From contig NZ_LAJB01000007.1 in assembly GCF_000970685.1 (NCBI RefSeq), positions 124,001 through 188,000 on the forward strand: DNA of 64,000 bases. The letters run 5' to 3'. Below are positions 37,577 through 41,351 of this stretch, piece after piece (the stretch's first letter is position 1; every line of letters begins with the position of its first letter). Both the position numbers and the translations under genes were made by a program. This DNA comes from Domibacillus indicus. GTDB lineage: Bacteria; Bacillota; Bacilli; Bacillales; Domibacillaceae. The notes beneath the pieces are model-generated. The model had not been told where the DNA came from. It worked only from the letters and a program-made list of their open reading frames with translations, and ran no database searches.

Positions 37577-37614
37577 AAAAAAAGGTGATAAGAATTATCC
37601 CTCTTATCACCTTT
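37577..37614 (-). terminator. Terminator/attenuator between rpsB and tsf
   Basis: A 12-bp perfect stem (AAAGGTGATAAG with CTTATCACCTTT) with a 10-nt loop is followed on the minus strand by a T run. It starts 11 nt after the rpsB stop and would lower tsf expression relative to rpsB. Confidence 0.88.
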
Positions 37615-38525: not shown

Positions 38526-39011
38526 TTATTCGTCTTTATTAAATTTAAACGCAAGCTTCACTTCTGTTATACCGATACGAAGTGCTTTAGCTATTTCTTC
38601 ATCCGTCATTCCCTGCTTTTTCATATCAGCCATTCGCACTGCAGGCGGCATATCTTCCGGCTTTTTCACTTTTGTGCCGGCATGCTTTGTACCGGCATAT
38701 GCCTGCACGGCAGCTTTACGTGCTGGATACTGTGGCAATGGCAGCGGCATCTCCTTTTCCTCATATTCTGCCGCTAAAGGAGACGGCGCTTTTTTAGCAG
38801 GAGCCGTTTTTGATAAATCAGCAATAAGCTGTTCATTTTCCTCTTTTATTTCCATTAAAAATGCGGACATCATCTCTTCCATTTCTTCGGCGGTCCGCTT
38901 CATTTCTTTTTCCAAATGATTCGTCTTATTCTGCCGCTGAAAAAGAAGAATCAAGGCAAATAAACTTATAGCATGAATTAAAAAAGAAATAGTAATTAAA
39001 AATGTTGTCAT
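38526..39011 (-). CDS. swrB: Swarming motility protein SwrB-like
   Basis: This is a single-pass membrane protein of the YlxL/SwrB family. In B. subtilis SwrB promotes assembly and activation of the flagellar export apparatus. The 161-residue product has one N-terminal membrane segment (residues 3-25), a Glu/Lys-rich coiled coil (about 30-70), a variable Pro/Ala linker, and a C-terminal helix-turn-helix-like segment (MTDEEIAKALRIGITEVKLAF). The ATG at 39011 has GAGAGGG close upstream. It lies after sigD as in B. subtilis and is followed directly by the rpsB promoter. Confidence 0.82.
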   Translation of the reverse strand: MTTFLITISFLIHAISLFALILLFQRQNKTNHLEKEMKRTAEEMEEMMSAFLMEIKEENEQLIADLSKTAPAKKAPSPLAAEYEEKEMPLPLPQYPARKAAVQAYAGTKHAGTKVKKPEDMPPAVRMADMKKQGMTDEEIAKALRIGITEVKLAFKFNKDE

Positions 39012-39020
39012 ACGTCCCTC

Positions 39021-39317
39021 TCATCCGCTAAAGTCAATTTGCTGCCCTTTATAAGGGTGAGCAGCATATGTCTTCTCTTGCTGTTTCTTTTTTTGCTGCT
39101 GGTGTTTACTCTGCTGTTGTTCATGCCCTCTCTCGCCTGTTTTAGCAAGGTCGCCGCTTTCTTCAACCGCTTTTTGCCGCCATTCGGCTTTTTTTTCCGT
39201 TTCTGCTTGTGCATGATACTGAGTGGCCTGGGCGGTTTGCTGATGATCGTGAAAGCTTTTAGCTGCATCGAAAGTTCTTGGAAGGGCGACCTGCATTTCA
39301 ACCGATTTAAAGTCCAT
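39021..39317 (-). CDS. Small hydrophilic protein between sigD and swrB
   Basis: I do not know a function for this 98-residue protein. It begins MDFKSVEMQVALPRTFDAAK, has a Gln/Lys/Glu/His-rich middle (about residues 30-85, likely helical or disordered), and ends with HPYKGQQIDFSG. No membrane segment or enzyme motif is visible. The ATG at 39317 has GAGGTG 6 nt upstream and the gene lies 27 nt after sigD and 9 nt before swrB, so it is probably real and co-expressed with motility genes. I recall similar small proteins with a VEMQVALPRT start and HPYKG end at this place in other Bacilli, but cannot confirm it here. Confidence 0.72.
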   Translation of the reverse strand: MDFKSVEMQVALPRTFDAAKSFHDHQQTAQATQYHAQAETEKKAEWRQKAVEESGDLAKTGERGHEQQQSKHQQQKKKQQEKTYAAHPYKGQQIDFSG

Positions 39318-39344
39318 ATTCAGCACCTCAATCTGAATGTCCGT

Positions 39345-40106
39345 TTATTTTTTTAGCAGCTGCTGCTTTAATTTAAACAGCGCTTTGGAATGAATTTGTG
39401 AGATACGTGATGTGGAAAGATCCAGAACTTCGCCAATCTCTGTTAATGTAAGTTCTTCTTTATAAAAAAGATCAATAACAAGCTGCTCTTTCTCCGTGAG
39501 CTTTTTGATTTGAGCAGACAGCTCTTCAATTTGCTCCTGCTTTACCACTTCTTCCTCGGGTGTTCTCATTTGCTGGTCTTTTAGTACAAAACCGGTTCCT
39601 TCAGGCTGATCCTGATCCTGCATTTGCTCATCCACCGATAAAACATGAGCAAAAAAATGTTCAGCCATCGTGTCCTGGACATCCTCAACAGTAAGCCCCA
39701 GCTCTTCCGCCACTTCCTCCGGTGTTACAGCCCGTAAATACTTTTGTTCCAGCTTCGAGGAAGCAGCTTCAATTTTCTTTGATTTTTCCCTTGCGGCTCT
39801 TGGGAGCCAGTCCTCTTTTCGAAGACCGTCCAAAATAGCGCCGCGAATACGGAAAGAAGCGTATGTATCAAATTTCAAGTCGCGCGACGGCTCAAATTTA
39901 AGAAGGGCATCATAAAGGCCGCTCATTCCATAGCTGGCCACTTCTTCTCTGCTCACTGTTTTGGGAAGGGCTGCACTGATACGGCGGCAATGGAACGTAA
40001 CAAGCGGCATATAACGGGCAACCAGTGCATCTCCGTCTTCTGGATTTTGCTCTTCTTTCCACCTTTCCCATAGTTTCTGCTCATCCTGGGGCATTTGTTT
40101 TGCCAT
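39345..40106 (-). CDS. sigD: Sigma factor SigD for motility genes
   Basis: This FliA/WhiG-type alternative sigma factor directs late flagellar, chemotaxis and autolysin genes. The 253-residue protein shows region 2 (SYGMSGLYDALLKFEPSRDLKFDTYASFRIRG, here split by function into core-binding and -10 recognition), region 3 (TPEEVAEELGLTVEDVQ) and region 4 (LTEKEQLVIDLFYKEELTLTEIGEVL). The ATG at 40106 has GGGAGGAG upstream. Unlike the B. subtilis arrangement, a strong terminator separates it from cheD, and a good SigA promoter lies in between. Confidence 0.96.
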   Translation of the reverse strand: MAKQMPQDEQKLWERWKEEQNPEDGDALVARYMPLVTFHCRRISAALPKTVSREEVASYGMSGLYDALLKFEPSRDLKFDTYASFRIRGAILDGLRKEDWLPRAAREKSKKIEAASSKLEQKYLRAVTPEEVAEELGLTVEDVQDTMAEHFFAHVLSVDEQMQDQDQPEGTGFVLKDQQMRTPEEEVVKQEQIEELSAQIKKLTEKEQLVIDLFYKEELTLTEIGEVLDLSTSRISQIHSKALFKLKQQLLKK

Positions 40107-40149
40107 CTAATCTCTCCTCCCGGCGTAGCACGTTGCAAGTCTTTCCTTT

Positions 40150-40178
40150 ATTCTAAAGAAAAGTACCCTTTTTGCCAA
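40150..40178 (-). promoter_or_regulatory. SigA promoter directly before sigD
   Basis: On the minus strand TTGGCA and TAGAAT are separated by exactly 17 nt; each box matches the consensus at five of six positions. It lies 10 nt after the T run of the cheD terminator and about 44 nt before sigD. Confidence 0.75.
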
Positions 40179-40187
40179 CAGTCTACA

Positions 40188-40217
40188 CAAAAAAGCAGCG
40201 GGACGCAGCCGCTGCTT
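40188..40217 (-). terminator. Terminator at the end of the fla/che operon (after cheD)
   Basis: AAGCAGCGG pairs perfectly with CCGCTGCTT (9 bp, 7-nt loop) and is followed by six T residues on the minus strand. It starts 3 nt after the cheD stop. It should strongly reduce transcription from the fla/che operon into sigD. Confidence 0.9.
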
Positions 40218-40219
40218 AA

Positions 40220-40717
40220 TTAAATCGTTTGCTCACCTTTATTAACTGTTCGAATATGAAGCAGAAAAGTGGACGGATCAAACTCAATCGTCCGGCCGCT
40301 GCTGCCGCCCGTATCTTCTGACAAAATAGGAATGCGAGCAGCCTGCAGCTGTTCTTTCACAGCTTCTACATTTCTGGGCCCGATTTTCATTAAATCAGAA
40401 CCGGATTTAAATTGAAACATTTGAGCTCCGCCCGCAATTTTCGCTTTTAACCGAATGGTCCGTGCGCCGCGCTTTTCAAGTTCGCTGACAAGTGCCCGGA
40501 TGCCAGTATCCGCAAATTTCGCTTTGTTTTTTATGTTCTCTCTGGCAAGACCTGAATTCGGAAGCATCACATGAACCATTCCGGCAATCCGGGTTGACTC
40601 ATCATAAAGAACAACACCCACACATGAACCAAGACCAGAAGTTCTAATTACATCAGGCGGTTTTACAATATTCATATCCGCAATACCGACTTTAACAATT
40701 TCTCCTGTCTTATTCAT
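40220..40717 (-). CDS. cheD: Chemoreceptor glutamine deamidase CheD
   Basis: CheD deamidates receptor glutamines and binds CheC in the adaptation system of Bacilli. The 165-residue product has the catalytic Cys32 in GLGSCVGVVLYD and His49 in AGMVHVMLP, the Cys-His pair of the family. I chose the ATG at 40717, which overlaps the cheC end by 8 nt and has GGAG about 9 nt upstream; the longer frame to 40741 lies within cheC. It is the last gene before the operon terminator. Confidence 0.95.
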   Translation of the reverse strand: MNKTGEIVKVGIADMNIVKPPDVIRTSGLGSCVGVVLYDESTRIAGMVHVMLPNSGLARENIKNKAKFADTGIRALVSELEKRGARTIRLKAKIAGGAQMFQFKSGSDLMKIGPRNVEAVKEQLQAARIPILSEDTGGSSGRTIEFDPSTFLLHIRTVNKGEQTI

Positions 40718-41351
40718 TATAGCCCGCTCCAAGTGCCTCAAATAAAACCGGAAAAGAATCCGGGGACAAAAGCAGAAAAAAGTGGCCTTTTACTACTTCC
40801 CCGTCTCCTTCATCCATTTCAGTTAAGAGCGTATCGATCACAATGGTATAATCACTGTATTGTGAAATCTCAAGCAGCCCGTAGCTGATAATAGCGCCAA
40901 ACATATCAACAGCAAGCTCCGGTACGGATGGCTGCAGCTTTAGCTGTGTGAAATCACCCAGCGCCGATAAATAAGAGCCAGACAAAATGTTTCCCATTTC
41001 CTGCATGGCAGAGAAGCCGATGCTGTGGCTATGACGGTCGTAAAAAGTAAAGGACTCATCGCTCATTAACTTTTGAATGAACCGGTCAGCTTCTTCAACA
41101 GCCAGCATAAAAAACATATTGCCGCCTGCTTCTCCTTCAATGGAAAGACTGACACTGACGACTTCTTTTTCTGATCCGCCTGTTAATTCCATCATCTCCG
41201 CAAAAGGAACAATCCGCACGCTCGGCACTTTCATGTCAATTTTTCGGTTTAAAAGTGTCGAGAGCGAAGTGGCTGCATGACCGGCTCCTATATTGCCGAC
41301 TTCTTTTAGAATATCAAGGTGAATGGGCTGGATTTTATCGATATAGTTCAT
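40710..41351 (-). CDS. cheC: CheY-P phosphatase CheC
   Basis: CheC removes phosphate from CheY-P and is stimulated by CheD. The 213-residue CheC/CheX/FliY fold has two phosphatase helices with the Glu/Asn motif: EVGNIGAGHAATSLS (about residues 16-30) and SAMQEMGNILSGSYLSAL (about 112-129). The ATG at 41351 has AAGGCGG upstream. It sits between cheW and cheD and overlaps the latter. No CheZ is expected in this lineage. Confidence 0.95.
   Translation of the reverse strand: MNYIDKIQPIHLDILKEVGNIGAGHAATSLSTLLNRKIDMKVPSVRIVPFAEMMELTGGSEKEVVSVSLSIEGEAGGNMFFMLAVEEADRFIQKLMSDESFTFYDRHSHSIGFSAMQEMGNILSGSYLSALGDFTQLKLQPSVPELAVDMFGAIISYGLLEISQYSDYTIVIDTLLTEMDEGDGEVVKGHFFLLLSPDSFPVLFEALGAGYNE

Follow-up and report, generated by a model that had tools for sequence, protein, structure and literature searches.

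A conserved terminator-like hairpin and a candidate sigma-A promoter precede sigD in Domibacillus, and comparable junctions recur in other Bacillales

Introduction

The split between swimming and sitting cells is a model problem, and the answer given for Bacillus subtilis relies on the distal position of sigD in one long transcript. Two papers state that transcript abundance drops along the fla/che operon of this organism and that the drop is held important for SigD bistability (PMC9250202; PMC4482365). The former also notes an annotated but minor promoter immediately 5' of sigD (PMC9250202, citing Allmansberger 1997 and West, Estacio, Marquez-Magana 2000). How such positional control would fare if sigD were set apart from the operon by a terminator and had a promoter next to it is the question raised by a locus of Domibacillus indicus, in which a first-pass annotation had picked out these two elements from the DNA letters. 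We analysed them in the window (the whole stretch of 64,000 nucleotides, positions 124,001 to 188,000 of contig NZ_LAJB01000007.1), in the genus Domibacillus and in a survey of Bacillales.

Results

Gene order at the locus

The source genome amounts to 3.6 Mb in 32 contigs. On the minus strand of the window, genes resembling flhF and flhG lie upstream of cheA-cheW-cheC-cheD-sigD, and sigD is followed by two small ORFs and then by rpsB and tsf; for the remaining flagellar genes we assume their usual names and a likeness to the B. subtilis gene order. The sigma factor was 94 percent identical to SigD of Domibacillus tundrae (among the matches listed) and scored 398.7 bits against the NCBIfam FliA/WhiG model NF005809 (cut-off 326). 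The features around the junction, all on the minus strand, are as follows.

40220 to 40741, minus strand: cheD, last gene of the upstream block (Pfam CheD, E 1.9e-36)
40193 to 40217, minus strand: predicted intrinsic terminator stem-loop, 9 bp with a loop of 7 nt (direct reading and fold)
40189 to 40194, minus strand: T-tract of the predicted terminator, comprising six T of which two also belong to the 9-bp stem (direct reading)
40173 to 40178, minus strand: -35 hexamer TTGGCA, identical in 13/13 genus genomes
40150 to 40155, minus strand: -10 hexamer TAGAAT (genus form TA[GA]A[AC]T, spacer 17 nt in 13 rows)
40143, minus strand: predicted start of transcription, some 7 nt past the -10
40113 to 40120, minus strand: ribosome binding site of sigD (GGAGGAGA region; direct reading)
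39345 to 40106, minus strand: sigD, flagellar sigma factor of the sigma-D/FliA type (Pfam sigma70 r2, r3, r4; NCBIfam NF005809)
39021 to 39326, minus strand: 101-aa Gln-rich ORF, 18 nt after sigD, between sigD and the DUF6115 gene
38526 to 39011, minus strand: gene of a DUF6115 protein (Pfam DUF6115, 28 bits, cut-off 27)

The cheD frame was read from a TTG codon, with the start MNKTGE 8 codons further in. At 113 nt, the gap between cheD and sigD is the widest among the 30 junctions examined; the next measure 85 and 51 nt, and the remaining ones are at most 25 nt long or overlap. Downstream of sigD, the Gln-rich ORF gave no Pfam or NCBIfam family above cut-off, and the DUF6115 gene occupies what is presumably the position of swrB in B. 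subtilis; both are probably co-transcribed with sigD. Further on, a 14-bp uninterrupted hairpin lies between rpsB and tsf (37581 to 37614); read on the minus strand it ends in a T-run, and read on the plus strand in a weaker T-rich tail. Known riboswitches and leader RNAs gave no Rfam match at gathering score in the window.

A terminator-like hairpin directly behind cheD

The hairpin AAGCAGCGG-CTGCGTC-CCGCTGCTT (40217 to 40193) starts 2 nt past the cheD stop codon and combines the features by which an intrinsic terminator is recognised, namely a GC-rich stem, a short loop and an immediate T-run. The 9-bp hairpin and the six T residues of the first-pass annotation are both present, with the correction that two T had been counted in both; the stem can be read as 9 bp followed by four T, or as 7 bp followed by six T. 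The isolated fold reached -15.6 kcal/mol (z -3.5; none of 200 shuffles was as low) and the stem alone -13.9 kcal/mol. The two strands of 18 kb together contain 34 terminator-like sites, where 20.3 are expected; of these, the present one has the most G-C pairs, and its core pattern, which was taken from the match itself, occurred once in the window and in none of 100 shuffles. Because six minus-strand hairpins with T-rich tails have a lower dG, four of them interrupted stems inside operon genes and two lying outside the fla/che genes (37614 to 37581, uninterrupted, and 35259 to 35225, with one bulge), the terminator is not singled out by dG alone; it stands out through its position, its uninterrupted stem and its conservation.

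The stem core with its T-run was found at six places in the genome, the cheD-sigD gap included, and the reversed pattern at none. Three of the five other copies read as such on both strands. With frames taken mechanically from stop to stop, four of the five lie where an open frame ends or follow its end by no more than about 30 nt. One of the four has a convergent frame 2-3 nt off on either side; two of the four are in addition spanned by a shorter frame, and the fifth copy lies inside an open frame of 489 codons. This placement would support a role as terminator.

A sigma-A-like promoter in front of sigD

Exactly 10 nt separate the T-run from TTGGCA, which bears out the earlier statement that TTGGCA-N17-TAGAAT follows close behind it. 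With 10 of 12 consensus letters in the two hexamers and a spacer of 17 nt (16-18 nt being the range applied), the site qualifies as a candidate sigma-A promoter. TTGGCA-N17-TANAAT occurred once in the window, with 0.07 expected and 7 of 100 shuffles having one. By consensus promoter score, 2 of the 12 Domibacillus rows (L010 and L095) fell short of p 0.05, and this level was reached in 17 of the 40 junctions with a terminator in the survey described below, 10 of the 17 being from Domibacillus.

Autoregulation by sigma-D, for which the promoter consensus is TAAA-N15-GCCGATAT, was tried as another candidate and found no support: the 12 sigD gaps of the genomes other than G011 scored 7-8 of 12 letters and shuffles mostly 8-9, and the positive control, the region before flgM, gave sigma-D-like sites of 11-12/12 letters in 12/12 genomes. 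Before flgB the scan returned 8-9/12 in 11 Domibacillus sequences and 8-10 in 21 other relatives, which is null level and gives no firm indication either way on a second operon promoter, and TAAA-N14-16-CCGATA matched 48 times genome-wide, compared with 51 for the reversed control. Because the sigma-D scores in the sigD gaps are at shuffle level, sigD looks as if it were driven by sigma-A without direct autoregulation.

Conservation in Domibacillus

The genus group comprised 13 genomes, 12 of them with a readable cheD-sigD junction; the thirteenth (G011) is a 77 percent complete assembly in which sigD is split over two contigs. Loss of the terminator in close relatives had been named in the first-pass annotation as evidence that would speak against it, and no such loss was encountered, the hairpin with its T-run and the promoter TTGGCA-N17-TA[GA]A[AC]T being present in 13/13 genomes. 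In the 12 rows with cheD, mean column identity was 0.98 and 1.00 for the stem arms, 0.52 for the loop, 1.00 for the -35, 0.90 for the -10 and 0.75 for the leader, and the stem starts 0-7 nt past the cheD stop. Over all 13 rows, 98.1 percent of stem cells are paired. A two-sided stem change is seen at one pair in one row (C-G to A-U in G011), a result reached by 64 of 500 shuffles; the same pair is broken in G002, and the loop-side pair in G011. An antiterminator structure was considered and rejected, since with 90 nt of cheD included in the fold, mean stem probability was at least 0.94 in 11 of the 12 rows, the exception being G006, where the fold including the cheD end prefers another structure (stem probability about 0.14-0.16).

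In G011, contig C93 (L335) carries flhA-flhF-flhG and then directly the terminator, the promoter and sigD, and none of cheB, A, W, C and D was matched on this contig (E 1e-4); its che genes may lie elsewhere in the genome. The promoter there is TTGGCA-N17-TAAAAT and the hairpin folds at -17.2 kcal/mol (z -5.2). Since both elements are kept with no che genes before sigD, they follow sigD and not cheD.

Comparable junctions in other Bacillales

The survey drew on 215 readable cheD-sigD junctions (186 once identical ones were removed), with nine SigD loci lacking a cheD match, including the two of G011, set aside. The sample was non-random: it took in the best 80 named loci listed, those of the genus and family, the first 30 loci of an order search in which 382 of 397 genomes matched, 60 chosen entries (G046 twice) and 46 chosen regions. 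A strict terminator scan superseded a looser one that had been positive in 53 of 558 shuffles and 13 of 181 coding controls; over all junctions the strict scan was positive in 4 of 930 shuffles and 0 of 168 coding controls. As the full set includes junctions too short for a terminator, the controls were redone on the 92 wide junctions (non-coding tails of at least 60 nt), with 11 positives in 920 shuffles, 0 in 92 coding (cheD) stretches and 7 in 92 on the opposite strand.

Of the 186 junctions, 40 had a strict terminator in their non-coding tail, with 12/12 in Domibacillus and 28/174 in the others. All 40 are within the 92 wide tails; the 94 shorter tails had none, 58 of these being under 30 nt with hardly room for one. 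On a quick FastTree of SigD and CheD the terminator state changes at least 17 times, and the tree being unrooted, gains and losses are inseparable. An extended -10, defined as TGN followed by TATAAT with five or more of its six letters matching, was present within 130 nt before sigD in 14 of the 28 junctions that have a terminator and lie outside Domibacillus (shuffles predict 2.4; the opposite strand gave 3 and cheD none), in 7 of the 52 wide junctions without a terminator (3.8 expected), in 0 of the 94 short ones (4.5 expected) and in 0 of the 12 of Domibacillus. With relatedness ignored, Fisher tests for the extended -10 gave 5e-11 for terminator versus short junctions and 1e-3 for terminator versus wide junctions without one. 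Terminator and promoter thus tend to co-occur, as far as the predicted sites go, with sequences differing between lineages. Examples of sigD set off in this manner are found in Sporosarcina sp. NCCP-2716, Solibacillus, Lysinibacillus odysseyi, Niallia and Bacillus aerolatus; as in Domibacillus, a terminator follows the upstream gene, and half of the 28 junctions have a sigma-A-like extended -10 before sigD, but the stem and promoter sequences are other than those of Domibacillus.

A small ORF of about 90-137 aa, which by its look may encode a membrane protein, was found between cheD and sigD in 50 junctions and counted in 48 of the 186 (two were dropped by hand). It usually overlaps the cheD stop codon (e.g. 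L016, L022, L058, L228), precedes the terminator in 11 of the 40 terminator junctions, and is absent from the 12 Domibacillus and the 18 named B. subtilis-like junctions; two members that were scanned gave no Pfam or NCBIfam family above cut-off. In the sister genera, a common sigD leader was noticed in the last 80 nt before sigD (L013, L015, L017, L117, L022, L036, L039, L122), consisting of ACTTCTC...GAG (a putative hairpin) and CCGAGGAGGAGA before the start codon; translational control of sigD by this leader is possible.

Motility regulators and the operon promoter region

SwrA was matched in 0 of the 13 genus genomes and, among 14 control genomes, in B. subtilis only. FlgM and flagellin were detected in 12 of the 13, the exception being the incomplete G011. 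In most Domibacillus, codY is followed by a hairpin in the gap towards flgB, and this gap also holds a conserved block with TATGTTATATT. A conserved block near TGTCGAAAAATGACTTTTATGTTATATT before flgB was noted at L244 (3767-3993, minus strand), with equivalents in L245-L254; TGTCGAA there resembles a Spo0A box. ACTTTT, or a sequence near it, occurs in the spacers of both the operon and the sigD promoter in most Domibacillus, and is missing before flgB in G008; the sequence is AT-rich, and an operator shared by the two promoters is put forward as a lead.

Discussion

A promoter in front of sigD is already known; what is different here is the terminator, together with room for both elements in one intergenic gap. 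Like the minor PsigD promoter of B. subtilis, the Domibacillus promoter lies directly 5' of sigD within the fla/che cluster, and as in the positional control of that organism, sigD stands behind che genes near the cluster end. Unlike there, Domibacillus has a terminator between operon and sigD, and terminator and promoter both fit in the 113-nt gap. In 18 named B. subtilis-like loci (among the matches listed) the gaps measure 21-26 nt, which leaves too little room for a terminator plus a whole promoter. Of the earlier description of sigD as cut off from the operon and given its own promoter, the presence of both elements holds in 13/13 genomes and the description is, on the strength of the sequences, well supported; the promoter by itself makes no contrast, since B. 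subtilis has one too. Full-text searches of open-licence PMC papers listed no account of a terminator shutting sigD off from the operon in other Bacillales.

We propose, with a probability of roughly 0.77, that sigD of Domibacillus begins a separate transcription unit where the fla/che cluster ends, with a supply set mainly by its own promoter. A polymerase coming down the operon would meet the intrinsic terminator right after the cheD stop and mostly leave; the sigma-A promoter 10 nt on would start a short sigD mRNA running into the two small genes behind, and the terminator would in addition keep operon traffic off this promoter. SigD supply would then be set mainly by this promoter, and not by the count of polymerases that finish the operon, and distance from the operon promoter should matter less in Domibacillus. 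The sequences show directly how the elements are built, that the genus conserves them, that G011 retains them and that the arrangement recurs in other lineages. It is likely that in the cell they work as a terminator and a promoter; that the promoter is shielded, and that motility is affected, is what we infer from this arrangement. A changed control of sigD would be a prediction that depends on termination efficiency.

If termination were inefficient, the terminator would be leaky and the promoter a booster, so that sigD would be fed by read-through as well as by its own promoter and the operon would still count. This is unlikely in our estimation, if worth serious attention. With -13.9 kcal/mol by itself the stem is of moderate strength, read-through could supply much of the sigD mRNA, and in B. 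subtilis both the operon and the minor sigD promoter are annotated (PMC9250202). In that organism sigD is also reported to fall more than flgC when NusG is lost, whether or not NusA is lost too (PMC8060035). However, a near-invariant stem that is kept even where cheD is missing fits a real boundary better than a slow-down.

It is improbable that the hairpin serves as a regulated attenuator, in which a ribosome finishing cheD would cover the 5' arm and let the polymerase pass, read-through then reporting cheD translation. The 0-7 nt between stop codon and stem in the 12 rows with cheD are within the ribosome footprint, but such closeness is ordinary, 32 of the 40 Bacillales terminators starting at most 20 nt after the upstream stop, and G011 has no cheD before its hairpin. 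Moreover, polymerases are reported to outrun ribosomes in B. subtilis (PMC13323073). We consider it a shade less probable again that the promoter is real and the hairpin a stabiliser or processing site at the 3' end of the cheD mRNA: the stem does start 2 nt past the cheD stop, but conservation extends to the T-run, and in G011 both hairpin and promoter are retained with no cheD found before them. That the elements are a functionless remnant of a gene lost between cheD and sigD, by chance or decay, is very improbable, for although 48 of 186 junctions have a small ORF at that place (0/12 in Domibacillus), the -35 is invariant and the stem nearly so, as against a variable loop and leader.

Returning to sigD as its own transcription unit, we suggest, tentatively and with less than even confidence, that a sigD module insulated in this way has been repeatedly gained or lost in the Bacillales, and that in the lineages possessing it motility is not decided by the polymerases that reach the operon end. 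The recurrence of an insulated sigD layout across the order is the more useful result. A lineage in which sigD is preceded by both elements offers a natural test of the gene-position idea; candidates from the survey are Domibacillus, Sporosarcina, Solibacillus, Lysinibacillus and Niallia, with G011, which keeps the module with the che genes missing at this place, as the telling case. If the proposal is true, the swimming population of Domibacillus would be more uniform, the gate on SigD activity would be FlgM instead of the amount of SigD supplied, and the position-based switch of B. subtilis would be lineage-specific wiring; the textbook model of which cells swim may fail for some of its relatives in the Bacillales.
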